From assembly GCA_020351995.1 (NCBI GenBank), contig CP070674.1:381261-445260 (forward strand): a stretch of 64,000 nucleotides of DNA. The letters are read 5' to 3'. The notes under the pieces are model-generated. The model saw only the letters and a program-made list of their open reading frames with translations, was not told the origin of the DNA and ran no database searches. The translations under genes and the position numbers were made by a program. This document shows positions 16,779 to 62,282 of the stretch, piece after piece; position 1 is the stretch's first letter; each line of letters starts with the position of its first letter. Source of the stretch: Candidatus Zixiibacteriota bacterium (GTDB taxonomy: Bacteria; Zixibacteria; MSB-5A5; GN15; FEB-12).

Positions 16779-17321
16779 GTGCTGATGCAGGAGTTATCGC
16801 CCGTGATTTTCAGGCAGATTGTGGTCATTATGGCAATATCGGTTGCCTTCGGAATAGTCAGCAATATCGTTTCCCCAAACAAGATTCCTTTCTTTGGCCA
16901 TTATCGATCTTTGTCAAGTGGTGATGGTCCGATCGTTCCCCCGACCGCAGAAGAAGGGGACCCGCCTTTTATCGCTATCGATGTGGCCGAGATGGAATTC
17001 AGCAATTACGATGCGGTCTTTGTCGATGCCCGGGACCCCGAAGAATTTGAATGCGGGACGATACCGGGCAGTATCAACATACCTTTCGAATATATGCCCG
17101 ATGAGGGGCTTGAAGCCTACATCGACTCGGCCCTGGGTGACCTTCCCAGGGAGCATCAGCTCATAGTTTTCTGCTCCGGGGAAGAATGCGATCTGTCATT
17201 GCATCTGGGGCGGAATCTGATGATGCTGGGCTACACCAACGTCGCCGTCTTTTTTGGCGGATCGAGAGAATGGGAGAAATTTGGCCTGGAGATGGAAAGA
17301 CAAGTAAGATGCGACGAGTAA
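16779..17321 (+). CDS. Membrane-anchored rhodanese-like protein
   Basis: Single N-terminal membrane segment (about residues 13-32, 'IVVIMAISVAFGIVSNI'), then a rhodanese domain (about 65-175) facing the periplasm. The domain has 'VFVDARDPEEFECGTIPGSI', a CH2A-like motif, and the active-site loop 'FCSGEECDLS' with the catalytic Cys at 132. Rhodaneses carry a persulfide sulfur. The start is GTG at 16779 or ATG at 16785; no clear SD decides. The end overlaps the MauE/DoxX-like gene by 13 bases. The pair probably works together in extracytoplasmic sulfur or thiol redox chemistry. Confidence 0.85.
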   Translation: MLMQELSPVIFRQIVVIMAISVAFGIVSNIVSPNKIPFFGHYRSLSSGDGPIVPPTAEEGDPPFIAIDVAEMEFSNYDAVFVDARDPEEFECGTIPGSINIPFEYMPDEGLEAYIDSALGDLPREHQLIVFCSGEECDLSLHLGRNLMMLGYTNVAVFFGGSREWEKFGLEMERQVRCDE

Positions 17322-17755
17322 TAGACAACGACATTCTGACGCTCATGGTCCGTATGGCGATCGGCATCACTTTTATCTATGCCTCTTACTACAAGATTAT
17401 CGGACCCGGGGACTTTGCCAAATCGATCTGGTACTACCATCTTGTGCCCGGCGCGCTGATCAATCTTATTGCCGTATTCTTACCGTGGATGGAACTACTC
17501 TGTGGTCTCTGTTTGATCTTTGGGGTGGGCTACCGGGGCTCACTGTGGCTGGTCACCATCATGACAGTCGTTTTCGTCGTCGCCATTGCCTCGGCTATTG
17601 CCCGCGGGATAGATCTTGACTGTGGATGTTTCAAGGCGGCAAAATCATCCAGTGCATCTACCTGGAAACCTCTTCTCTTTGACGTTGGGCTACTGGTCCT
17701 GCTGGCTCAGCTATACCTGAGCCGATCCAGGAAGTGGTTTCTCGCCGGACGCTGA
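17309..17755 (+). CDS. MauE/DoxX-family redox-associated membrane protein
   Basis: A four-helix inner-membrane protein of 148 residues from ATG 17309, chosen because it overlaps the rhodanese end and starts just before the first helix; earlier in-frame starts read through the rhodanese gene. The conserved 'GIDLDCGCF' CxC motif between helices 3 and 4 is typical of MauE/DoxX-like proteins, which assist disulfide or thiol processes. It is translationally coupled to the rhodanese. Its stop codon touches the pilQ stop codon on the other strand, with no intergenic base. Confidence 0.8.
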   Translation: MRRVIDNDILTLMVRMAIGITFIYASYYKIIGPGDFAKSIWYYHLVPGALINLIAVFLPWMELLCGLCLIFGVGYRGSLWLVTIMTVVFVVAIASAIARGIDLDCGCFKAAKSSSASTWKPLLFDVGLLVLLAQLYLSRSRKWFLAGR

Positions 17756-39494: not shown

Positions 39495-39743
39495 CTACTG
39501 GCAGGCTGCGTATGACCACGGACAGCCATACTCGGCAGCGGTCGGATTGCAAATACATATGTATTCCGGTAAGGATTGGACCGGGAAATACTTGTACCCG
39601 AAGCACTGACCGCAGTTATAGTCCGGTGGTTTTACACAGCAGTCGTCGTTCTTCTTGGCGTGAACCGTGAACGCGAACGCAAACGTAAAGCACACCACCA
39701 GCACGAGTAGTAGCTTCAAGTCGGTTCTTCTAAGCACTCTCAT
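39495..39743 (-). CDS. Small secreted cysteine-rich peptide (8 Cys)
   Basis: An 82-residue precursor with a long hydrophobic signal ('LKLLLVLVVCFTFAFAFTVHA') and a predicted signal peptidase site after 'VHA', near residue 29. The mature part of about 53 residues has eight Cys in the order CC-x8-C-x2-C-x15-C-x-C-x9-C-x6-C, and many Tyr and Pro. AGGGAGG lies 6 bases before ATG 39743. The gene follows, by 68 bases, a membrane thioredoxin-fold gene on the same strand, the same order as at 61677-62557. It resembles the peptides at 59.6-63.8 kb in size and export but not in cysteine spacing. No homologue is known to me. Confidence 0.75.
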   Translation of the reverse strand: MRVLRRTDLKLLLVLVVCFTFAFAFTVHAKKNDDCCVKPPDYNCGQCFGYKYFPVQSLPEYICICNPTAAEYGCPWSYAACQ

Positions 39744-39811
39744 TAAGTCACCTCCCTTCAAGTGATGAGTAGTTGGCCGATCGTTGGCCCGAGCCGTTCT
39801 ACACACGATTT

Positions 39812-40408
39812 TCAAAGAAGAAGCGCCCGGACATCCTCCTCTTGTAGGCGATTATGAATGACGGCAATAATTACCAGATTACTGTCTACGACGATGTGAA
39901 ACGGATACATACTGATGCCCAACTCCTTCGAGAAGTCGCGCTCCTGATCGTAAAAGAGAGCGGACGTGAAGTCATATCTGTACAGTATCTCGGTCAGGGT
40001 TTCAGATTGCCCGGCGCAAATAAAGAGAATGTTTGCAGCGGAGGTGGTGTCGGACAGGGTCTCGCCGAGCCAGGTCATCTCGTCCAGAGAGGCCCGGCAT
40101 CCGGCCATGATGAAAATCAGCATCGCTCTTGTTCCAACGAGCTCGGAAAGCATAACCGGGTCGCCGTCGTATGAATCAAGCTGACGGTCGGGCAGTACGA
40201 AGCCCGGACGCAGGTGTTCAACGTCGGCCATGGCTTTTGCATGAACGCGGTTCATTGCCCGACTGCTTCGGTAATGGTAATACCGGTCGCCGACGTATGC
40301 ACCGACCACGTAGGTGACTGTGACGGCCAGGATAACTGCGAGCACCGCATATAACCGACGACGAGATTTCGGTTCGGTCTTCCTGTTCGAGCCATGAGTG
40401 TAGCTCAT
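39812..40408 (-). CDS. Membrane-anchored thioredoxin-fold (redoxin/TlpA-like) protein with CxxS motif
   Basis: A 198-residue protein with one N-terminal membrane helix (about 20-40, 'YAVLAVILAVTVTYVVGAYV') and an outward thioredoxin-fold domain. The redox motif reads 'MAGCRASLDE' (C104-R-A-S107), a CxxS instead of CxxC, so only one thiol remains at the active site. The cis-Pro region is 'ISMYPFHIV'. CxxS variants are known as monothiol, isomerase-like or trapping forms. GGGAGG lies 8 bases before ATG 40408. A strong promoter (40504-40533) precedes it. A cysteine-rich peptide gene follows in the same unit, so a role in its folding is plausible but not shown. Confidence 0.78.
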   Translation of the reverse strand: MSYTHGSNRKTEPKSRRRLYAVLAVILAVTVTYVVGAYVGDRYYHYRSSRAMNRVHAKAMADVEHLRPGFVLPDRQLDSYDGDPVMLSELVGTRAMLIFIMAGCRASLDEMTWLGETLSDTTSAANILFICAGQSETLTEILYRYDFTSALFYDQERDFSKELGISMYPFHIVVDSNLVIIAVIHNRLQEEDVRALLL

Positions 40409-40503
40409 CACGCGGTCCTCCCAAAAAAACCGGGGTAGGGGTACTTATGTGAGGAATAAAGGAAGGTTAAGAAACAGGGAACCTAACGGTCCTTTGTTCT
40501 ATC

Positions 40504-40533
40504 AATCTAATCATGTTTAAGACGGATTGTCAA
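40504..40533 (-). promoter_or_regulatory. Promoter for the thioredoxin-fold / peptide unit
   Basis: On the minus strand, TTGACA (complement of 40528-40533) and TAGATT (complement of 40504-40509) with an 18-base spacer, about 95 bases before the start codon. The -10 form TAGATT also occurs before the peptide gene at 60047. Confidence 0.7.
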
Positions 40534-40689: not shown

Positions 40690-43344
40690 ATGCACAGGTC
40701 TGTCATCATGACAATCATCTTGCTGCTGCTTGCCTTGCCCTGTTTGGCGGCACAGCCCAACAACGGTACGTCACAAACCGTTGAATCGGTTTCGGCCGAA
40801 GTGGCAAGTTTTTACAACTGGGAATCGCCACCCGGGGAGGCCTATCTGGCACCGCGCGTGGAACTACCTTACAAAGTAACGACATATGTGGGCCAGGAAT
40901 GCGTCATGCCTCATAACTTTATGCAGCTGTCGGCACCAGTAGTACGATTCGCCTGGGATTACGACTCGGACGGCTGGCTGGATGAGATATGGGATACCTG
41001 GGACCCAGCTGTTCACGTATTCGGCTCACCTGGTAAGCGCGACGCCACGCTCTATGCTTTTGACACCTATGGTAATTATGGCAAGGCCACGATAACGGTG
41101 ACCGTTATGAGCGGAACAGGTGAGAATAAGATCGAGGTGGTGAAAGCCGCCGATAGCTTCCGACAGCACCCCAAGAAGAGCCGTCCCGCTGATCTTGCGG
41201 TGGCGCCTGACCCGGAAGAGAGATACTTCCTGCTGATAAACGATAACGACTGCGGTCTATACTATACCATCCAGAGGGCCTATCACCGGCTGGTCGACAC
41301 CTTCGGTTATCACGACGCCAATATCGTAGTAGTCACCAACTGTACGGAGCATCCCGATGATACCGTGTTCATCGACTATTCTACAAGCGAGATGGACCAG
41401 GCTTTCAACTATCTCATAGATCGTATGACTTATAACGATGACCTGCATATTCTGGTCTCGGCTCACGGCAGCGGTTGTTTCGACTCCTCGATAGCCTGGT
41501 ATGGCGATATCGACAAGGGCCCCGGTTTGTATGCCAGGCCGTTTTATCTCAATTTTGTCGGTTTAGTCTTTACCGAAGATGATGATCCTGAATTTATCGA
41601 TGACCCGGATCTGTTTTGCACCGAGGACGAGTTTCCGGTCGCCATCCCCCAATGGTGGAACAACGGATACCGTACCAGCATGGTGGGTATGAACCAGTGG
41701 ATGGCGGATTGGGAACCGGAGTATTGCCGCCGACGTATGGCTGTCTCGCATTTCAATAAGGTCAAATTTTATACTTCGAAACAACCCAAGAGCGATGACG
41801 ACGAGTTTATCGAGATTTTTGTTCAGTATCTGAAAGGTGACACCAACCACAACTGCAAGATCGAACCGGAACTGGGTGAAGTATGGGACTATGACGGCGA
41901 TGGTAACCCGCCCATTGACACCACTGAACACGGCTATGTGTACGACGACCAGGATTGGGGCGACCTCGGGTTGCTTGACAATGGCACTCGGTCGGGCTTC
42001 TTCCTGCCCAGCATCGCCGTTTTTGATGCCGGTCTGGATGACATCCCCGATGTGTGCTTCACCTACCCTGAGCCACCTTCGCAGCCAATAGTTCACGGCA
42101 CGGATTGGGACAATGATGGCCTTGTCATAGGCCTGGATGTCAATCGTGATGGAGACTGGCTTGATTCGGCGGGGATAAGCGAAAACATCACCGTTCCGGA
42201 CAACTACTGGGGTGATTTCCTTGACGCCCTGGAATACCGCTACGTTACGGGCGTATATACTAATTGCTTTTCTGGTGGGGTGATAGACGATATGTCGCGG
42301 GCAAACGTGCTCGTAGCCACCGCCACGACGGCCGGGACAGTCGCCTGGGGCTCTACATTCACATCATACTTTTCCCAGGCTCTTACCGGGGGTATTTCTA
42401 ACAGGGACTTTGACCCCGGCGAAGATCGCCTGGTGACATTTCTGGATGTCTACAACTATCTGGACAGCCTGGATCTCTCGAATCTGGAGGGACGCGTCAG
42501 ACTTGACGACAACGGTGACCGGGTGGGCCATTTGTTTCCGCTTCCGGACGGCGGCGACGGCGCTCTGGCGGCCGAGCTGACCTGGGGGACACTACCTCCA
42601 CCAAAACCGCCAGTGGGACCCCCGGTGCTGGTCTGGCCACTTCAGGACGACTGGACCTATGATACAAAGCCGACTCTGATATGGAGTGATACCGCCGCGG
42701 CTGATTCATTTTTCGTCCAGTGGGGCAACGAGGACTTTTCGGTTGGAGGCAGCGCCACGACGACTGACACATTTTTCACCTTTGGCTCTTATGTAAATCC
42801 CTTACCGTATCATGATCTGTACTGGCATGTCCGCTCGTACAAAGAAGGCCTAACCAATGGTCCTTATTGTGACAGTGTGTCGTTCGATGTTCTGATCGAC
42901 TATGATTGTTGCATAGGTATGCGCGGGAACCTTGACGGCGATCCTTACGACAGCGTCACCATGGCCGATGCGGACTTCCTGGTGGAATTCCTCTGGCAGG
43001 GAGGACCATTACCGGATTGTATTCCGGAAGGAAACGTTGACGGAAGCCCCGGTAACGAAATACCCGATATAATGGATTTGATGTACCTGCAGGCATATCT
43101 GACCAGCGGGGGGCCGCCGCCGGCCCAATGCGCGGGTTACCTGTGTGGAGACGCCGACGGGAGCGATCAGATCGATGCTGCCGACGCGGTGTTCTTAAGT
43201 GACTATCTTTATCACGGTGGACCCCCTCCTGAACCGATGGACGCCGGCGACATGGATTGTATACCCGGCGTTGATGAAGGCGATCTGGATTGGATCGTCG
43301 CATACTTGTGGCAGGGAGGACCTGCTCCTTGTGACTGCGAATAG
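40690..43344 (+). CDS. Secreted clan-CD (C13/caspase-like) cysteine peptidase with PKD-like and dockerin-like domains
   Basis: An 884-residue exported protein. Signal peptide 1-21; a PKD-like region (about 60-140, 'VVRFAWDYDSDGWLDE'); then a peptidase-like domain with a candidate His259 in 'ILVSAHGSG' and Cys526 in 'YTNCFSGGV', the H-G / C-x-S-G dyad of legumain-type enzymes. About 265 residues lie between them, a large insertion with Ca-binding-like acidic stretches ('DYDGDGNPP', 'DWDNDG', 'DVNRDGDW'). An Ig-like domain (about 640-735) follows. The last 140 residues are four half-repeats with DxDG loops and 'LWQGGP' / 'YHGGPPP' ends, equal to two dockerin type I modules. It may be anchored to a cohesin partner not in this window. 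GGGAGG precedes the ATG. Confidence 0.8.
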   Translation: MHRSVIMTIILLLLALPCLAAQPNNGTSQTVESVSAEVASFYNWESPPGEAYLAPRVELPYKVTTYVGQECVMPHNFMQLSAPVVRFAWDYDSDGWLDEIWDTWDPAVHVFGSPGKRDATLYAFDTYGNYGKATITVTVMSGTGENKIEVVKAADSFRQHPKKSRPADLAVAPDPEERYFLLINDNDCGLYYTIQRAYHRLVDTFGYHDANIVVVTNCTEHPDDTVFIDYSTSEMDQAFNYLIDRMTYNDDLHILVSAHGSGCFDSSIAWYGDIDKGPGLYARPFYLNFVGLVFTEDDDPEFIDDPDLFCTEDEFPVAIPQWWNNGYRTSMVGMNQWMADWEPEYCRRRMAVSHFNKVKFYTSKQPKSDDDEFIEIFVQYLKGDTNHNCKIEPELGEVWDYDGDGNPPIDTTEHGYVYDDQDWGDLGLLDNGTRSGFFLPSIAVFDAGLDDIPDVCFTYPEPPSQPIVHGTDWDNDGLVIGLDVNRDGDWLDSAGISENITVPDNYWGDFLDALEYRYVTGVYTNCFSGGVIDDMSRANVLVATATTAGTVAWGSTFTSYFSQALTGGISNRDFDPGEDRLVTFLDVYNYLDSLDLSNLEGRVRLDDNGDRVGHLFPLPDGGDGALAAELTWGTLPPPKPPVGPPVLVWPLQDDWTYDTKPTLIWSDTAAADSFFVQWGNEDFSVGGSATTTDTFFTFGSYVNPLPYHDLYWHVRSYKEGLTNGPYCDSVSFDVLIDYDCCIGMRGNLDGDPYDSVTMADADFLVEFLWQGGPLPDCIPEGNVDGSPGNEIPDIMDLMYLQAYLTSGGPPPAQCAGYLCGDADGSDQIDAADAVFLSDYLYHGGPPPEPMDAGDMDCIPGVDEGDLDWIVAYLWQGGPAPCDCE

Positions 43345-43377
43345 GCGTCTCTGATTTTGAGATACGGAACGAATATG

Positions 43378-43407
43378 AGAGCCGTCTTACAGACGGCTCT
43401 CTTTATT
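43378..43407 (+). terminator. Intrinsic terminator of the dockerin peptidase gene
   Basis: AGAGCCGTCT / AGACGGCTCT, a perfect 10-bp stem with a 3-base loop (43378-43400), followed by CTTTATT. Confidence 0.9.
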
Positions 43408-43462
43408 GCGCTAGATTGTGATGTTCTGTCGCCGCATCAAGTCACCTTCGTGCCGACTTCAG

Positions 43463-43600
43463 CTAGAATATCCCACTGCCCCCGGAATCCCTGAAAAATG
43501 CCCACACGATAGCGATAATCAGCAGCCCGGCCCCAATTAACCCCCAGGCCATACCGGAAATCCCGAGGAATTCAGCCTTCTTTTCTACCTGATTTTCCAT
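43463..43600 (-). CDS. Small single-pass membrane protein (45 aa)
   Basis: Not recognised. The 45-residue product starts 'MENQVEKKAEFLGISG', has one hydrophobic helix (about residues 17-36, 'MAWGLIGAGLLIIAIVWAFF') and ends in a Gly/Ser-rich tail. An AGGTGGG site about 6 bases before the ATG supports real translation. It lies between the dockerin peptidase (convergent) and the DUF4846 gene, whose stop is 71 bases upstream on the same strand. Confidence 0.55.
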   Translation of the reverse strand: MENQVEKKAEFLGISGMAWGLIGAGLLIIAIVWAFFRDSGGSGIF

Positions 43601-43671
43601 AGTTTCCCACCTTATGATTTATTGGACTTACTGGATTAGACCGGATGAACTCGGGCAATGTTGCGGCGATT

Positions 43672-44499
43672 TTACCACCGCTTCAGGTCGGCGCGCTCGA
43701 AGGTCCACTCCGGAGTTCGGATGCGCTCACCAAAATCACAATCGTACCACGGGCTCAAGGTGGCATTGTAGGGGTTTTTCAGAACGTGGATCTCCTGCGC
43801 GGGCATGTAGCTCTGGGCCAGCATGAACATCCGTTTGCCACTCGATTTATCTTCGGCTAAATCGACAACGATCACGGCATGGCCGGGAAACCCGCCCTGG
43901 ATGAAAATGTCGCCAATCTGGATATCACAGGGATCAGTCCTGCGTTTCAGCTCCTTACTTAGCGAAAACGATCCAGCATAGGTAAACACGGTATTGAGAT
44001 ATTCGCGGAAGGTCGCGTACGATGAATCAACAGCGGCGTTTCTGGTCCAGGTGACTTTGTTGCCGTTGACTCTCGGCCGCTTACCTGATATCCAGTCTCT
44101 GAAGGTAGCCCTGTCACCGCTGGTGAAGTTGAAGCTGATGCTGTCAAACATGCCTCGCGAATAGAGATACTCGGCGCGAAGGCGAATGACCGCATCGGCG
44201 CACTGTTGCAGGTCCTTGTTGCCGACATCGATATTAACCACCGCGCAATGGGCCCATTGGTTCCATTTCTTGTCGCCGTTGTAGAGAAGAACCTTTGCAC
44301 CGTCTTCTTTTAGTGGAAGGTGTCGAAGCCACTGGGCGAATGAACCCTCTTCGGCCGGTATCCGTTTGTACTTTTCCGGTACGTCGAACCGTGCTTTTAT
44401 AGTGTTGGTATTGTCATAATGTTGGAGCCACGGGTACTCCTGGCCCAGGGCGGGGCTTATCAGGCATAAACAGACCATAAGAACTGTTATTGATTTCAC
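43672..44499 (-). CDS. DUF4846 domain protein, exported
   Basis: A 275-residue protein with a signal peptide ending 'SPALG' (about 19). The remainder matches DUF4846: 'GSFAQWLRHLPLKEDGAKV', 'QCADAVIRLRAEYLYSRGMF', and the C-terminal 'FPGHAVIVVDLAED' with 'FMLAQSYMPAQEIHVLKNP'. The last part, with conserved Cys, His and Gln residues, recalls a papain/NlpC-like fold, so hydrolase activity is possible but unproven. The start is GTG at 44499 with GGAGAGGG upstream. Neighbour of a papain-like peptidase gene on the same strand, 109 bases away. Confidence 0.85.
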   Translation of the reverse strand: MKSITVLMVCLCLISPALGQEYPWLQHYDNTNTIKARFDVPEKYKRIPAEEGSFAQWLRHLPLKEDGAKVLLYNGDKKWNQWAHCAVVNIDVGNKDLQQCADAVIRLRAEYLYSRGMFDSISFNFTSGDRATFRDWISGKRPRVNGNKVTWTRNAAVDSSYATFREYLNTVFTYAGSFSLSKELKRRTDPCDIQIGDIFIQGGFPGHAVIVVDLAEDKSSGKRMFMLAQSYMPAQEIHVLKNPYNATLSPWYDCDFGERIRTPEWTFERADLKRW

Positions 44500-44608
44500 A
44501 CGGACCCTCTCCGGAAAGGCTGAGTGCTTTCAATATTTATATACGGGATGATCTCGTCGGTTCCGTGGCTGTCTGATACGAGCCTTGCGATTGCACAATT
44601 AGAGCCAG

Positions 44609-45346
44609 CTATTTTGCTGTCCCCCACACAATATAGAAATCATCTATCCCGGTAACGTCGCCGTAAGCGGAGTTGAAATAGCCGCCCTCACCCCATTTTT
44701 CGCCCCAGGAATTGCGGCAAATCCAGTAACCACCGTTCGTAACGGAAGAATCATCACACCATCCGACAATCAGCACCCAGTGACCGCATAAAGCCTCAGA
44801 CTCACCATCGTATTTGTATACACCGCCCCGGTATCGGTCCAGGTCATCGTAAAGGATTAAATTGGTCGCCACCGGGCCGTTGCGTAGAATGGTTTCCTTT
44901 ATCCTTAAGATCCGGTCCGCGAGCGACAGTTTGTCAATTGTGAGCGAGTGAACCTCGCCAACAAAATACTTCCCTTCAAGGTCGTCGATACAGGCCGTGT
45001 CCTTCTGCAGGTATGGGAAGTCGGATTCCAGCACAATCCCGTGGTCGCGGATATATTTCAAGGCGTCCAGGGCGGCGCATCCCGCATTGCAGCCGCATCC
45101 CGGCACGCAGCTTACGACTTGCTGCTCGGATAAATCGACTTCACGGCCGGTTTGCTTCTTAATCAGTGCTTCGGTCAGGGCAACCGCCGCGAATTCGCCA
45201 CATGACCCACAGTTGCCCTGGTGTTTTACAGGGGTGAAGATGCTTGAATCTCGCCAGTCGAACGATGCTGGCAGGTCGTTTTGGGCAAATGACAGATTGC
45301 ACATCAGCAGAATGACAAGCGCTGTCAGGGGTAGCTTTTTGGACAT
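44609..45346 (-). CDS. Secreted papain-like cysteine peptidase (C1A)
   Basis: The 245-residue product has a signal peptide (1-21) but no long propeptide: the mature domain begins almost at once with 'PASFDWRDSSIFTPVKHQGN'. The oxyanion Gln and catalytic Cys are in 'QGNCGSCGEFAAV', the His in 'LCGHWVLIVGW', and the Asn in 'ICRNSWGEKWGEGGYF'. The residue after the catalytic CGSC is Gly, where papains have Trp. Additional Cys pairs ('CVPGCGCNAGC') suggest disulfides. The lack of a clear inhibitory propeptide is unusual for C1A enzymes, though some bacterial members share it. Confidence 0.9.
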   Translation of the reverse strand: MSKKLPLTALVILLMCNLSFAQNDLPASFDWRDSSIFTPVKHQGNCGSCGEFAAVALTEALIKKQTGREVDLSEQQVVSCVPGCGCNAGCAALDALKYIRDHGIVLESDFPYLQKDTACIDDLEGKYFVGEVHSLTIDKLSLADRILRIKETILRNGPVATNLILYDDLDRYRGGVYKYDGESEALCGHWVLIVGWCDDSSVTNGGYWICRNSWGEKWGEGGYFNSAYGDVTGIDDFYIVWGTAK

Positions 45347-48889: not shown

Positions 48890-50788
48890 TTAAAGTTTCG
48901 CGAGTTCTTCTTCCAGCCGTGTAACAAGACGATCCATATCCTCAACAACGTATGTATAAGTGGCCGGATCGGACATATCGACGCCGGCTTTCAACAGCTG
49001 ATTCATGGGGTGGTCGTTGCCGCCGGACTTGAGCAGTTCGAGATACCTGCCGATTGCTCTCTCACGGGTTTTTTTGTCGGACGAACGGATATCTCTGAGA
49101 ATGTTTTCAGCGGCGGCGTGACTGGTCGAATACTGAAAGACATAGAAGGGGGAAACATACAGATGCGGTATTCGACACCAGTTGGAGCCGTACAGGGTGT
49201 CGTAAACCATTGCCTCTCCGGCCTGTTCCTTCCATAGGTCGGAGTAAAGAGCGGTAAGGATGTCGGCGGTTATGGGCTGTCCCTGTTCGGCTAAACGGTG
49301 CACTTGCAGCTCGTAATCAGCGTACATGGTGCGATTGTAGAAAGTGTATACGAGATCGTCAATAATGCGGACCAGTATTGCGACTCGCTCGTACGGATCT
49401 TTCATGTGTTCGAGCAGGTAATCAAAAAACAGAGCCTCGTTGATGGCGGACGCGACTTCAGCTACGAACAGAGAATACTGGCAGGTCGAGATCGGCTGGT
49501 GTTTCTGAGCCAGGTAAGTGTGCATGGCGTGGCCCATTTCGTGGGCAAGTACCATGGCCGCGGTGAGAGTATTATTGTAATTCAGAAGGATATAAGGGTG
49601 TATCCCGTAGACTTCATCACAGTAACCACCGGTGGATTTGCCCTTAGTTTCATACACGTCGACCCAGCGATTGTCAATTGCCTGCCTGACAATCTGCTGA
49701 TAATCCTTCCCCAGCGGTGCCACCGACTCACAAACCCATTGGGTGGCTTTGTCGTATTCGACAGTCAACTCAACATCCACGACCGGGATACTGGCGTCAT
49801 AGGAGTGATATTCGCTGAGCCCGAGAGCCTTCTTTCGGACCTTGTGATAACGGTGTAGAGGCTCCAGGCCGTTCCTGACAGTGTTGATCAAGGTCTCGAC
49901 GACCTCGACCGGAATGGCATTAGCGTCGAGCGACGCTTCGAGGCATGAGCCGTAGTCTCGGGCCTGTGCGTGAGCCCAGTTGGTTTGCACGACACCATCG
50001 TATATGGCAGCGTATGTATTGCGGTTGACATGGTAGGCCTTGTACAGTGCCTCAAAAGCCGCCGCGCGGTCTTGCTGTCCACGATTGGTGGAAGCTATTC
50101 TGTCATAGTTGCCCTCGGTTATTGTCACGGTCTCGCCGTCGGAGAGCATTACCGAATTATAGACCATGTCGGAGACTGTGAGATTCTTATAGACTGTATA
50201 AGGAATGGCCGATGTAGGGGCAAAGTATGACAGAAGACGCTCTTTATCCTCGTCGAGAACGTGGCTTTGCTGACGGTAAGCGTCTTCAATGGAAAAGCGG
50301 TATGGCTCGAGGTTCGGGTATTCATTCAGCCATTGTTGCATCGTATCTCTCGGGAGAGACAACATTTCCGGCGTGAACCACGATAATGCCACTATGAATT
50401 TGCTGAAGAGTATCTGAACTCTCTGTAGTCTGGCCGCAACCTCGTTATCTGCATTGTTGAGCGCCAGGGTAAGGCCGGGAAACTTATAGACGCGGTAGGC
50501 AAGTTCGGAGAGGTCGTCAGACATTTTGAACGCCCGGTGAATGTTCTCCGGTCCGTCCGACAGGGTGCCTTTGAGAGCGGCGAACCGCGTCGCCAGAGTG
50601 TCCAGTTGGGCCAGTTCGATCTCCCAGGCTGTCCAATCGGGATACACGTGGGTCAGATCCCAGGTATATTTGGGGTCAATATCGTTTCGGTTGGGAATAC
50701 TGCCGGTTTGAGCGAGAGTTGATGCCGCGAGCAGCAGAATCAATGCGGGTAATACAGCTCGGTGAAATTTGCCATTTGGTCCTGGCAT
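48890..50788 (-). CDS. pepF: Secreted M3-family oligopeptidase (PepF-like), copy 1
   Basis: Oligoendopeptidase F type zinc peptidase, 632 residues. Unlike cytoplasmic PepF it carries a signal peptide ('AVLPALILLLAASTLAQ'), so it acts outside the cytoplasm. The zinc motif is in 'VLAHEMGHAMHTYLA', with the third ligand Glu expected in 'FVAEVASAINEALFF'. 'YTWDLTHVYPDWTAWE' is the PepF N-terminal block. ATG 50788 has AGGAG before it; a longer reading adds 13 residues without an SD. Copy 2 lies immediately upstream in the same direction and has exactly the same length, separated by a terminator. Confidence 0.92.
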   Translation of the reverse strand: MPGPNGKFHRAVLPALILLLAASTLAQTGSIPNRNDIDPKYTWDLTHVYPDWTAWEIELAQLDTLATRFAALKGTLSDGPENIHRAFKMSDDLSELAYRVYKFPGLTLALNNADNEVAARLQRVQILFSKFIVALSWFTPEMLSLPRDTMQQWLNEYPNLEPYRFSIEDAYRQQSHVLDEDKERLLSYFAPTSAIPYTVYKNLTVSDMVYNSVMLSDGETVTITEGNYDRIASTNRGQQDRAAAFEALYKAYHVNRNTYAAIYDGVVQTNWAHAQARDYGSCLEASLDANAIPVEVVETLINTVRNGLEPLHRYHKVRKKALGLSEYHSYDASIPVVDVELTVEYDKATQWVCESVAPLGKDYQQIVRQAIDNRWVDVYETKGKSTGGYCDEVYGIHPYILLNYNNTLTAAMVLAHEMGHAMHTYLAQKHQPISTCQYSLFVAEVASAINEALFFDYLLEHMKDPYERVAILVRIIDDLVYTFYNRTMYADYELQVHRLAEQGQPITADILTALYSDLWKEQAGEAMVYDTLYGSNWCRIPHLYVSPFYVFQYSTSHAAAENILRDIRSSDKKTRERAIGRYLELLKSGGNDHPMNQLLKAGVDMSDPATYTYVVEDMDRLVTRLEEELAKL

Positions 50789-50815
50789 GGGACTTCTCCT
50801 CTTGAGGTGTGATTG

Positions 50816-50849
50816 AAAAGCGAGCACAGGGGTTTAGTCCCTGTGCTCG
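50816..50849 (-). terminator. Terminator of the second PepF gene
   Basis: CGAGCACAGGG / CCCTGTGCTCG, a perfect 11-bp stem with a 7-base loop (50821-50849). On the minus strand it is followed by CTTTTC. It separates the two pepF genes into independent units, unless read-through occurs. Confidence 0.9.
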
Positions 50850-50904
50850 GATATATACGATGCGAGTATCCCCACTGACTCGTACCACTGATTTCATGGT
50901 CTCA

Positions 50905-52803
50905 TCAAAGCTTTGCCATTTCCTCCTCGAGCTGGGTCACCAGCCTGTCCATGTGGCGGATGACTGCAGTGTAGGTTTCGGGGTCGGTCATATCTATGCC
51001 CGCTTTGCGAAGTTGCTCCGCGGGATAGTCATTCCCACCCGATTTCAGCAGGGTCATGTACTTATCCAGAGCCTGCTCTCGAACTTCCTTATCTTCAGAG
51101 CGGATTTCCTCCAGTAGCTTGGCGGCCGCCGCATAGCAGGAAGCATACTGATAAACATAGAAAGGCGCATCGTAGAAGTGGCTGATGCGACACCAGATGG
51201 ACCCATAGAGTGAGTCGACGGCCCGGGAGTCGCCGGATGCGGCCCTTTCAAGGTCAAAGCTGATCTTGGTCAGTACATCGGCTGTGATCGGCTGGCTCTG
51301 TTCTACAAGTCGGTGCGCTTGCAACTCATAGTCGGCGAACTGAGTTTGAAGATAAAATGTACCCTCGAGATCCTGGATGGCCATGAGGAGCATTTCAATG
51401 CGTTCCTTCGGGTCGGTGGAGCGCTCCATCAGGTAGTCAAGCAACAGCGCCTCGTTGATTGCCGAGGCAACCTCGGCTACAAATATGGTATATCCGGAGG
51501 TGGCAGTAGGTTGATTCTCGTTGGATAGCCAGGTATGGCAGCAGTGGGCAACTTCGTGCGCGAGCGTGAACACCGAAGTCAGGGTGTTATTGTAATTCAG
51601 CAGCATGTACGGATGGACACCGTAGACATTGGCCGAGAACGCTCCCGAGTATTTGCCCTGGGCCTCATAGACGTCGATCCAGCGGTTCTCCAGGGATTGC
51701 TTGACCACCTCGCGGTACTCCTTACCGAGTGGCTCCACCGACTCGTACGTCCACTTCTTGGCCAGCTCGTAATCGTAGGTCTTGTCCAGTTCTATCAGCG
51801 GAATACGGCCGTCATAGCCGTAGTATTCCTCCAGTCCCAGCGTCTTGGCGCGAAGCTTGTGATAGCGCTGGAGCGGTTCATAACCGTTCTTCACAGCGTC
51901 GATCAACAGCTCGACAACTTTTACGGGAATGTTGTTCGGGTTGAGAGCGGCCTCTATACACGAACCGTAATTACGCGCCTGAGCTTCGGCCCAGTTGCTC
52001 TGCATAATGCTGTTGTAAATTGAGGCATAGGTGTTGCGGTTGGCGTGATAAACGCCGTAAAGAGTCCTGAAGGCTAAGCGGCGGTCGTCTTGATTGTAAT
52101 TGGTTGCCAGGGTGTTGGAATACTTACCCTCTGTCATAGTGACGGTTTCACCCGTAGAAAGCGCGACATCTTCATACTTGATGTCAGAAGTAGATAGATC
52201 GTTATAGATCGACGAGGGCGTTCCGGAGAATGTGGAATAGTACGAAAGCAACTTTTCCTTCTCTTCGTCGAGAACATGCTCCTGCAGACGGTAGGCATTT
52301 TCAATGCCAAAACGATAGGGGGTCAGTTTTTCGTTTTCATCCAGCCATTCCTTCATCGTATCCCAGGGAATAGACAGCAGTTCGGGGTTGAACCACGATG
52401 TGGCCGTGCCGAATTTGGCCATCAGAAGCTGAACCTGTTGCAGCTTTGCCGAATATTCGTTGTTGGCATTGTCCAGCACCAGGTGCAGATCGGGATACCG
52501 GTATACTCGGAACAATAAGGCCGTGAGGTCATCACTCATTTTGTAGGCCTTATAAAGATTATCCGGTCCGCCGGCCAGGGATCCTTTCAGGGCGGCATAG
52601 TCGTCCATCAGTTTTTCGAGGTCTTTCAGACCCGCCTCCCAGGTTCCCCAGTCGGGGTAGATGTGGTTCAAATCCCATTTGTACTCGTCATCGATTTCGC
52701 TTCGCGGGGTAATGCCGCCGCTCTGGCCCATTACAGAGGCGGATAGAGCCAAAATGGTCAGCAGCGTCACGAGATAACCGATTGTTCTGCGAGTTGTCAA
52801 CAT
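50905..52803 (-). CDS. pepF: Secreted M3-family oligopeptidase (PepF-like), copy 2
   Basis: A 632-residue paralogue of the preceding copy, with the signal peptide 'IGYLVTLLTILALSASVMGQ', the block 'YKWDLNHIYPDWGTWE', and the zinc motif 'TLAHEVAHCCHTWLS' followed by 'FVAEVASAINEALLL'. ATG 52803 with AAGGAG 7 bases upstream is the start; the much longer in-frame reading to 53229 has no SD and reads through non-coding DNA. Both copies keep the zinc ligands, so both should be active, perhaps with different peptide preference. They are typical of tandem duplication followed by divergence. Confidence 0.92.
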   Translation of the reverse strand: MLTTRRTIGYLVTLLTILALSASVMGQSGGITPRSEIDDEYKWDLNHIYPDWGTWEAGLKDLEKLMDDYAALKGSLAGGPDNLYKAYKMSDDLTALLFRVYRYPDLHLVLDNANNEYSAKLQQVQLLMAKFGTATSWFNPELLSIPWDTMKEWLDENEKLTPYRFGIENAYRLQEHVLDEEKEKLLSYYSTFSGTPSSIYNDLSTSDIKYEDVALSTGETVTMTEGKYSNTLATNYNQDDRRLAFRTLYGVYHANRNTYASIYNSIMQSNWAEAQARNYGSCIEAALNPNNIPVKVVELLIDAVKNGYEPLQRYHKLRAKTLGLEEYYGYDGRIPLIELDKTYDYELAKKWTYESVEPLGKEYREVVKQSLENRWIDVYEAQGKYSGAFSANVYGVHPYMLLNYNNTLTSVFTLAHEVAHCCHTWLSNENQPTATSGYTIFVAEVASAINEALLLDYLMERSTDPKERIEMLLMAIQDLEGTFYLQTQFADYELQAHRLVEQSQPITADVLTKISFDLERAASGDSRAVDSLYGSIWCRISHFYDAPFYVYQYASCYAAAAKLLEEIRSEDKEVREQALDKYMTLLKSGGNDYPAEQLRKAGIDMTDPETYTAVIRHMDRLVTQLEEEMAKL

Positions 52804-53381
52804 CGCATCACTCCTTGTGTATTTGATGGAAATGTTAGTATTACGGTTAATTGTTTCATTTACGTATGGTCGCCGGTTTTGTTTAGTCAAAAAACGGCCT
52901 AAGTCACTGGTATACAGATAAGGCCATTTTCGCTTGGAGATTGCGGGGATATCACAACTGCGATGTGGGCGTTCTAGCCCCCCTTTTTCGTCAAATAGAG
53001 CACGATAATGAGCCCAACAGAGAGTACCAGCGTACACATCACGCTTGCTTCCGGTCGGAATCCCCCTCCACCAGGCACCGGTCTGTTCACTCCGGCTGAG
53101 TACCGTGATATCTGGTACCGGAGTATTTGGCAGTTGTCGCTCTGCAATTGTTGCGAGGTGCCTATCTGCAATCTTTCGCGCACGGGGCGATTTTTCGGTG
53201 CTGATCTGGCTAAGAAGAGGCAGGAACATGCCCGAACACGCTCCTGCCCGTCAAAGGAGTGTGAAACCATGTGGTCGTGTTGGATTCCGTTTCAAGGAAG
53301 CTTCAACCACATATTTTTTCGGTTACAGTCTTCCCAATAACAGCGTGATTTTCATATCGATTGCCTCCGGACCCCGATGAC
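52804..53381. other. 578-bp intergenic region
   Basis: No convincing gene. It holds the leader of pepF copy 2 and the 3' flank of the TrmB-like gene. On the minus strand an open frame ends at 52974 with a hydrophobic segment and 'LTKKGG', but it lacks an SD and codon regularity. Another minus frame starts at ATG 53360 with GGAGG upstream but stops after 10 codons. I see no repeat or transposon trace. Confidence 0.4.
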
Positions 53382-59424: not shown

Positions 59425-59452
59425 TTGACATCTTTGATGGTCTTCCTATATT
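59425..59452 (+). promoter_or_regulatory. Promoter of the first cysteine-rich peptide gene of the cluster
   Basis: TTGACA (59425-59430), 16-base spacer, TATATT (59447-59452), 112 bases before ATG 59565. One of the best sigma-70-type matches in the window, suggesting high expression. Confidence 0.8.
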
Positions 59453-59907: not shown

Positions 59908-59936
59908 TTGACAATTGAGTCCATATGTGTTAGATT
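59908..59936 (+). promoter_or_regulatory. Promoter of peptide gene P2
   Basis: TTGACA (59908-59913), 17-base spacer, TAGATT (59931-59936), 110 bases before ATG 60047. The leader length is nearly equal to that of P1. Confidence 0.8.
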
Positions 59937-60443: not shown

Positions 60444-61487
60444 ATGAGTATCACAATGAATCCGTCTAGATTTGCCGTTCGATTTATCGCCGGAACAGCT
60501 GCCGTGGTGTTTATTCTGGGTGCATCGATGGTTTCGGCAGGAACTGGCAAAGCGGCTGCGGTCGCCGAGCGCGACGATATAGTAGCGACCTTTTCTATCG
60601 TCGGACACGATCCGAAGACCGGTGAGTTGGGAATCGCGGTAGCGTCACGTTTTTTCACGGTCGGGAACGTCGTCCCGTGGGCCAAGGCCGGGGTCGGTGC
60701 AGTGGCCACGCAAGCCTACGCCAACACTTCCTTTGGATGGCGCGGGCTTGAACTTCTGCAAATGGGGTTGACACCTCAAGAAGTGAAAGATGTGCTGATC
60801 AGATATGACGATGATCCCACTCGTCGGCAGTTTGGTGTCGTCGATGCGGAAGGTCGTTCAGCAACTTACACTGGCGACGGATGCACTGCCTGGGCCGGTG
60901 GTCGAGCCGGGGCTCACTATGCCGTTCAGGGGAATATTCTGGCCGGCGAAGCAGTGGTTATTGCCATGGAGAAGGCTTTTCTGGAAACCGAAGGAACACT
61001 GGCTGACCGCCTGTATGCTGCCCTGTTGGCAGGGGAAGCTGCCGGCGGCGATTCAAGAGGGAAGCAGTCAGCGGCTTTGCTGGTGGTCAAAGAAGGCGCC
61101 GGTTACGGTGGATATACTGATCGGGCTGTTGACATTCGGGTTGACGATCATCCGGAACCGTTCAAAGAGCTGGGACGAATTCTGAAAATCGGCCAGATGA
61201 ATTACGCCTGGAACGAAGCCTGGACATTGTTTACCACGGGCAAATGGGCGGAGGCCCTGGCGCCCATGGAGCGCACCGCAAAACTAGCCCCTGATTATGC
61301 CGAAGTCTTTTACGATCTGGCCTGTATTCGCCTGGCCAACGACGACCGACCCGGCGCACTCGGAGCACTGGAGAAAGCGCTCGCACTGAATCCAAAGCTG
61401 GTCAACCAGGCGTTAAAGGATGACGACCTCAGGGGGCTGCGCGGTGATCCGGAGTTTAACAGAATTACGGGCTCTGCGGGCCACTGA
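60444..61487 (+). CDS. Exported DUF1028 (Ntn-hydrolase-like) protein with C-terminal TPR
   Basis: A 347-residue protein. A hydrophobic N-terminal signal ('FIAGTAAVVFILGASMVSAG') is followed by the DUF1028 domain (about 45-245) with 'ATFSIVGHDPKTGELGIAVA', 'VVPWAKAGVGAVATQAYAN', 'VDAEGRSATYTGDGC' and 'AVQGNILAG', diagnostic of the family. Its fold is related to Ntn-hydrolases; activity is unknown. The last 90 residues contain TPR-like helices ('YDLACIRLANDDRPGALGAL'). GGGAGAA precedes the ATG; TATAAT at 60409-60414 with TTGCCG or CTGTTG upstream may be its promoter. It sits between peptide genes P2 and P3, and a link to them is only positional. Confidence 0.88.
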   Translation: MSITMNPSRFAVRFIAGTAAVVFILGASMVSAGTGKAAAVAERDDIVATFSIVGHDPKTGELGIAVASRFFTVGNVVPWAKAGVGAVATQAYANTSFGWRGLELLQMGLTPQEVKDVLIRYDDDPTRRQFGVVDAEGRSATYTGDGCTAWAGGRAGAHYAVQGNILAGEAVVIAMEKAFLETEGTLADRLYAALLAGEAAGGDSRGKQSAALLVVKEGAGYGGYTDRAVDIRVDDHPEPFKELGRILKIGQMNYAWNEAWTLFTTGKWAEALAPMERTAKLAPDYAEVFYDLACIRLANDDRPGALGALEKALALNPKLVNQALKDDDLRGLRGDPEFNRITGSAGH

Positions 61488-61676: not shown

Positions 61677-62282
61677 ATGTCTGAAAAACAAAGCATCGGT
61701 GTAAAATCCGCTATTCTGTACGGCATAGCAATAATAGTGGTGGCTTTTATCGGGGTTGTATTGGGCAACTGGTTTGTGGAATGGAGGCGTAGCTCTCAGA
61801 TGCCACCAAGGCCCGAACTCAAAGACTGGCAGATGGCCAACCGCAGTTCGCTCGAGTTCAATGACCCGTTTCCCAGCGAAGAACTGCTTGATCTTGACAG
61901 CAATACTGTCAGCATCGACTCTCTTATTGCTGGAAGGAAAGTTCTGGTGGTCATGATTTCACCGGGCTGCCAACCCTGTGCGATGGCGATTAAATCGTGG
62001 AGGAGCCAGTTGGAAACCCTGCCAGCCGATTTCACCCTGCTGGCAATTGCGGGTGATGAGATTGCCGAGATGCGCACCTACCGGGACGAGCACAATGTTC
62101 CATTCCCTATTTATTGTGATCCGGCCATGCTGTATACACAGCAGTATGATCTGACGACTTTCCCGACCGTCATAGGGGTCAATGAAGAAGGCAACGTCGC
62201 GCTGGTATGGCACGGTTTCGGTGAAAAGTACACTTTGACTGACTTTTACGATGTAATTTCGGGTCCCAACCCACAAGGATAG
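61677..62282 (+). CDS. Membrane-anchored thioredoxin-fold (TlpA-like) protein with CxxC motif
   Basis: A 201-residue protein: one membrane helix (about 12-30, 'AILYGIAIIVVAFIGVVLG') then an outward thioredoxin/redoxin domain. The active-site motif is 'ISPGCQPCAMAIKS' (C98, C101), and the cis-Pro is in 'LTTFPTVIGV'. It is expected to reduce or shuffle disulfides in the periplasm. GGAAGGAA precedes the ATG. The peptide gene P3 starts 80 bases after its stop. The same order (membrane thioredoxin-fold gene, then cysteine-rich peptide) is seen at 39495-40408, where the partner has CxxS. A dedicated folding factor is the favoured guess. Confidence 0.85.
   Translation: MSEKQSIGVKSAILYGIAIIVVAFIGVVLGNWFVEWRRSSQMPPRPELKDWQMANRSSLEFNDPFPSEELLDLDSNTVSIDSLIAGRKVLVVMISPGCQPCAMAIKSWRSQLETLPADFTLLAIAGDEIAEMRTYRDEHNVPFPIYCDPAMLYTQQYDLTTFPTVIGVNEEGNVALVWHGFGEKYTLTDFYDVISGPNPQG

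Follow-up and report, generated by a model that had tools for sequence, protein, structure and literature searches.

The window analysed here is a 64,000-nucleotide stretch from the single-contig, 3.6 Mb genome of a Candidatus Zixiibacteriota bacterium, and holds two loci at which a gene for a membrane-anchored redoxin (TrxA or TrxB) is followed by genes for small cysteine-rich peptides with signal sequences (Table 1). When the window was scanned for short genes whose products begin with a hydrophobic segment and contain four or more cysteines after it, one peptide gene was returned beside TrxA and six around TrxB. The original prediction had placed a thioredoxin-fold gene ahead of a peptide gene at each locus, with gaps of 68 and 80 bases; its coordinates were right, and each pair lies on one strand. 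At the second locus TrxB is indeed followed by P3, but the description as a pair was understated, since the cluster holds seven peptide genes, two upstream of TrxB, four downstream of it in the window and one past the window end.

Table 1. Positions of the redoxin genes, peptide genes and associated features (window coordinates unless a locus name is given)
Feature	Position	Strand	Description
TrxA peptide	39495..39743	-	82 aa; signal sequence FTFAFAFTV, then 8 Cys; CC motif typical of clade A; aligned with clade A peptides
TrxA	39812..40411	-	membrane-anchored redoxin (TlpA/ResA-like); CRAS (CxxS); PF00578 32.9 bits; N-terminal transmembrane stretch; clade A
Promoter-like TTGACA-18-TAGATT	40504..40533	-	upstream of TrxA; predicted by consensus scan only (10/12)
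P1	59565..59780	+	71 aa, 6 Cys; own promoter-like TTGACA-16-TATATT at 59425-59452; orthologues, mature part: dN 0.10, dS 2.8
P2	60047..60259	+	70 aa, 6 Cys; own promoter-like TTGACA-17-TAGATT at 59908-59936
DUF1028 + TPR protein	60444..61487	+	between P2 and TrxB; PF06267 E 5e-75
TrxB	61677..62282	+	membrane-anchored redoxin; CQPC (GCQPCA); PF00578 45.2 bits
P3	62363..62557	+	64 aa, 4 Cys; 80 bases beyond TrxB; same-genus orthologue 72% identical in mature part
P4	62675..62878	+	67 aa, 6 Cys; family alignment; predicted signal helix and three beta strands
P5	63002..63217	+	71 aa, GTG start, 6 Cys; Shine-Dalgarno GGAGGT; orthologue, mature part: dN 0.14, dS saturated
P6	63490..63786	+	98 aa, 10 Cys after signal; Shine-Dalgarno GGAGGT; peptide-profile match E 1.8e-4
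P7	L009:2272-2490		seventh peptide of the TrxB cluster, just beyond the window end

TrxA starts at ATG 40408 or at the adjoining in-frame GTG 40411. The peptide gene begins on the same strand, 68 bases beyond it, with a Shine-Dalgarno sequence (GGGAGGTG) just ahead of ATG 39743, and a consensus scan of the gap returned no promoter-like or terminator-like site. Strong Shine-Dalgarno sites precede all six in-window peptide genes of the TrxB cluster, and the promoter-like sites of P1 and P2 are consensus matches only. The DUF1028/TPR gene is probably a bystander; it adjoins the enzyme gene only in the four genomes of its genus, and both it and an S9 peptidase gene beside TrxB were rejected as module parts because their presence is mostly within-genus synteny. 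Other genes were recorded in the window: 40690-45346 includes, divergent from TrxA, a gene for a secreted protein that has dockerin-like repeats but matches no Pfam family, followed on the other strand by a DUF4846 gene and one of papain type (Peptidase_C1), and 48890-53229 holds two tandem genes for secreted M3-type (oligoendopeptidase F-like) peptidases that are apparent paralogues.

Both enzymes belong to the AhpC-TSA/redoxin family, scoring above the PF00578 cut-off of 26 bits; against the ResA model (NCBIfam NF002854) they scored 32.4 and 24.7 bits, far from its cut-off of 170. An AlphaFold2 model of TrxB (14 sequences; mean pLDDT 88) has a helix at residues 9-41 followed by a thioredoxin fold, which predicts that the protein is anchored once in the membrane, at its N-terminus, and that its domain lies outside; among solved structures its closest matches are the surface thioredoxin Etrx2 and ResA. 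The TlpA/ResA-type CxxC is present in TrxB and absent from TrxA, where the context is GCRASL; the conserved proline is invariant in both families. Across the family CxxC is the rule, with one gene carrying SPHC and CxxS confined to TrxA and to four genes of G064, G066 and G067 that form a group of their own. From these sequences, CxxS is a minority variant of at least two origins, and a peptide gene is kept beside four of the five CxxS genes. The enzyme tree splits into two deep clades, A (with TrxA) and B (with TrxB), with support of 100/99, and the profiles of the two clades align over their full length, anchor included. The contrast between CRAS and CQPC had been read correctly at the level of residues; TrxA and TrxB are, however, not simple counterparts, as most of clade A carries CxxC. 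TrxA itself sits on a long branch (1.74) and has lost the resolving cysteine, and it could be decaying. Redoxin genes with one in-frame TGA, apparently for selenocysteine-containing redoxins, were also seen at G000:C1:1366768-1367130 (L002) and in several other genomes of the phylum.

Local duplication as the origin of the two window pairs was ruled out by the enzyme tree and by comparison of the peptides, which are alike only in the signal sequence. Eight genomes carry both enzyme types. Outside the window's genome the two are found on separate contigs or at distances of megabases, and the spacing of 22 kb between the TrxA and TrxB pairs is therefore probably coincidence. The recurrence of the pair at this distance had been taken to indicate a functional link; the link was upheld by the survey of the phylum described below, while the spacing means little.

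Of 47 distinct peptides, 43 have an even number of cysteines after the signal sequence (p 1.4e-9), a parity partly common by descent even after similar sequences were removed, and these counts would suit paired cysteines. Clade A peptides have FVFVF-like signals and a CC start in common, those of clade B have a C-x3-C...CC...C...C pattern or other patterns, and peptides of the two clades align over the signal sequence only. A further type, CCWVMVCTVNPPIxCWEECRPCP, occurs at L186 (minus strand, 3 peptides) and L189 (G078, G086), where arrays of up to three such peptides follow a diverged enzyme-family gene. In the mature part, the closest orthologues gave dN of 0.10-0.14 against dS of 0.8-2.8 or saturated, with dN up to 0.48 in others; by this measure, orthologues at one array position within the genus are under strong purifying selection, and the peptide genes are therefore real, with stable roles. 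An arms race among the peptides was discarded as an explanation, being unsupported by dN/dS, and the conserved orthologues argue for a fixed role.

Searches of the peptide families against Pfam, NCBIfam, PHROGs and PDB sequences returned just weak, signal-driven or chance matches and no family name. The nearest was DUF6520 (PF20130), likewise a family of small proteins, to which P4 scored 18.6 bits against a curated cut-off of 25.4 and one clade A peptide also matched weakly (E 0.0009); the match with a printed extent covers only residues 1-45, the N-terminal part. The P4 model (mean pLDDT 82, pTM 0.42) consists of a signal helix and three strands, and a fold search with it gave no match better than E 0.6. 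In the open-access literature we found no paper on Zixibacteria with cysteine-rich peptides or thioredoxin, and the peptides seem new to science.

To assess the gene neighbourhoods, we performed whole-genome searches across 132 species (genomes) of Candidatus Zixiibacteriota, to which profile searches were also kept. Homologues of TrxA and/or TrxB were found in 45 of the 132 genomes, roughly a third, a total that includes three genomes added by profile. TrxB-like genes occur in 24 genomes, and TrxA-like genes in 21 by single-sequence search or 27 by profile, the latter partly matching TrxB-type genes. Forty loci were taken with up to 17 kb each. Under a strict automatic criterion, a peptide gene lay within 1.5 kb in 32 of 42 enzyme loci and in none of the 30 ordinary redoxin loci used as controls (p 5e-12, Fisher test), with thresholds chosen after first looks and identical for cases and controls; the controls were the top PF00578 matches in the same genomes and hence are mostly other redoxin subfamilies. 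In the 144 kb nearest the enzymes there were 36 peptides, whereas the 205 kb of flanking sequence beyond 4 kb contained none (p 1.5e-14). Hand inspection, which recovered missed ORFs and peptides overlapped by spurious longer frames, raised the count to 39 of 42 loci; with shorter loci of sufficient sequence (7 of 8) and loci found later by profile (6 of 7; L186-L189, L214 and L216 with a peptide, L215 without), an adjoining gene for a secreted cysteine-rich peptide was present at 52 of 57 enzyme loci by inspection. The original prediction had named failure of such a survey as its own refutation, and the pairing held, at 52/57 loci against 0/30 controls.

At the inspected loci the nearest peptide is always on the strand of the enzyme, usually 10-160 bases off, and adjacency is kept where the order is reversed and the peptide comes first (L142, L143, L145-L147). 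The five loci without a peptide are L116 (CSYS), L132 (CAGC), L144 (SPHC), L059 (CSYC) and L215 (CELC), three of which (L132, L059, L215) have ordinary-looking CxxC sites; a normal ResA-type protein (L190, WATWCKPC) has no peptide beside it. The window's genome has eight places matching PF00578 at E ≤0.01, and at the six other than TrxA and TrxB no peptide was found by the same criterion. At least four more loci in that genome, found with the TrxB-type peptide profile, hold lone peptides with no adjacent enzyme; the presence of an enzyme thus predicts a neighbouring peptide, but the converse does not hold. The clearest enzyme-less case is a lone TrxB-type peptide array at G078:C1:1283667-1284652 (L065, L081), in a genome whose enzyme gene lies about 76 kb away. 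With so many peptide genes standing alone, the enzyme need not adjoin them, and they could be served in trans.

Fourteen survey loci (e.g. L119:4011-6440, L149:7505-10051, L121, L113) also carry, beside the pair, a gene for a secreted protein of about 810-870 aa where complete, which either follows the peptide gene or diverges from that of the enzyme. This protein ends in a PNPY/FlgD- or T9SS-like C-terminal region that resembles a sorting signal, and Pfam matches to it are almost absent. Although it may be an additional client or partner of the pair, we do not claim it as a required third component, as it is absent next to TrxA and TrxB. There was no sign of a mobile or phage-borne module, nothing having been found among viral contigs, plasmids and phages. 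A contig search with TrxB alone gave no confirmed relative, and a named-genome search with close TrxB relatives, for which the pattern used was short, gave three matches, all in Candidatus Zixiibacteriota.

Enzymes and peptides also correspond by type. Clade B enzymes are present in 11 of 14 genomes with clade B peptides, compared with 24 of 132 overall (p 2e-7), and the remaining three also hold a member of the enzyme family. Enzyme and peptide distances are correlated within clade A (Mantel r 0.61) and within clade B (0.50; p 5e-5), a correlation that shows inheritance as a pair and is by itself no proof of contact, since plain vertical inheritance of a linked pair gives the same. Taken at the level of sequence, a functional link between enzyme and peptide is strongly supported.

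We propose, with a probability of about two in three, that the enzyme and its peptides form a two-part module in which a dedicated membrane-tethered thiol-disulfide oxidoreductase or isomerase matures disulfide-bonded secreted peptides. A tethered, client-specific enzyme is proposed because it would account at once for the adjacency on a common strand, the co-divergence and the even cysteine counts. Against it count the many lone peptide genes, the three loci with an ordinary-looking CxxC site and no peptide, and the possible decay of TrxA. The peptides, which have typical signal sequences, would leave by the Sec route and, once beyond the inner membrane, fold into small domains that are presumably disulfide-bonded. 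The redoxin, held by its one-helix tether with the ResA-like domain outside, would meet them as they emerge, and the CxxC site of most members would make, break or reshuffle peptide disulfides until the right pairing is reached. In CxxS members, TrxA included, the attacking cysteine alone is left, which would suit a disulfide-swapping chaperone or a holder of mixed disulfides. The original idea of oxidative folding or isomerisation agrees with the even numbers of cysteines and with the ResA-like fold that is predicted. 'Oxidative' is the least certain part of this reading. The window's genome encodes a CcdA/DsbD-type electron carrier, and neither DsbB nor VKOR was found in it at the thresholds used; isomerase or reductase chemistry is therefore favoured over oxidation. 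The likeliest chemistry would be isomerisation with reducing power from the CcdA/DsbD-type carrier; net oxidation is less likely and might be served by an unknown oxidase. In this same genome, a rhodanese-like gene at window positions 16779-17755 is overlapped by a gene for a MauE/DoxX-like membrane protein, a possible redox membrane component.

The same carrier, with DsbB and VKOR not found, would also serve a redoxin that acts as a CcdA/DsbD-fed reductase and keeps the peptides as thiols, for example for metal binding or electron carriage. Reductase activity is likewise what characterises ResA and Etrx2, the proteins closest in solved structure. We consider this unlikely: the even cysteine counts (43/47) suit paired cysteines, the spacing of cysteines is far more variable from family to family than a conserved metal site would be, and CxxS members would reduce poorly, yet four of five keep their peptide. 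Slightly less probable still is that the peptides are bacteriocins or toxins directed at neighbouring bacteria with the redoxin as an accessory folding factor, as in the pediocin and sublancin clusters, where thiol oxidoreductases are paired with disulfide-bonded bacteriocins (PMC4919988, PMC4336743). Arrays and strong differences between peptide families would agree with such a role, but neighbour clustering of 42 loci revealed no recurring exporter, modification enzyme or immunity gene, no PedC-type NCBIfam match appeared at E up to 1, the signals are Sec-type instead of double-glycine leaders, and every array position has conserved orthologues under purifying selection.

Adjacency might also follow merely from a common cell-envelope stress regulon, with the redoxin sensing redox state or taking part in some process unrelated to the peptides. 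TrxA and its peptide share a single promoter-like site, so that co-regulation alone could hold them together, and P1 and P2 carry promoter-like sites of their own. We regard this account as improbable, given that enzyme and peptide families diverge specifically with one another, that the pairing rule holds across two deep clades and that adjacency is retained where gene order is swapped.

The module, carried by 45 of the 132 species searched, is a standing feature of an uncultured, almost unstudied phylum. Its loci amount to a library, made by nature, in which numerous families of small cysteine-rich peptides come with their likely folding enzymes; with it, client-specific disulfide isomerisation becomes testable in a bacterium and CxxS members may act as natural trapping variants. 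The survey also brings to light numerous short genes that may escape routine annotation.

Among known systems, ResA, StoA, TlpA and CcmG likewise have one N-terminal anchor, the PF00578 fold, a CxxC before a helix and the conserved proline, and known members serve particular substrates. The enzymes described here differ in scoring far below the ResA NCBIfam cut-off, in having no tryptophan before CxxC, in being encoded beside secreted cysteine-rich peptides and in some members being CxxS. We know of no peptide partner for HP0377 of Helicobacter pylori. This protein of the CcmG/ResA family is reported to be both a reductase and an isomerase (PMC5909903, PMC4491210). Pediocin PA-1 and PedC likewise combine a thioredoxin-fold protein with a small disulfide-bonded secreted peptide encoded with it, whose potency PedC raises (PMC4919988), and in the sublancin cluster the thiol oxidoreductases BdbA and BdbB are encoded with a cysteine-containing secreted peptide (PMC4336743). 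The sublancin cluster differs in its S-glycosylation and exporter genes, none of which was seen at the loci here. The pediocin PA-1 system has a double-glycine leader, a dedicated ABC exporter and an immunity gene, and neither exporter nor immunity gene is recurrent at our loci. To our knowledge, no known system combines a ResA-like anchor with Sec-type peptide arrays. In eukaryotes, ERp44 is a CxxS protein disulfide isomerase. AGR2, also a CxxS protein disulfide isomerase, is a chaperone of cysteine-rich secreted mucins (PMC10907643, PMC12384036). AGR2 and ERp44 act in the endoplasmic reticulum and have a thioredoxin fold with the attacking cysteine alone, a resemblance of mechanism from which we claim no kinship. 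It is a tentative, rather doubtful extension of our proposal that secreted disulfide-bonded peptides of a class not yet described occur throughout the phylum, that every family of them has a dedicated tethered redoxin, and that the natural CxxS versions, holding mixed disulfides, are bacterial client-specific chaperones of the AGR2 type.
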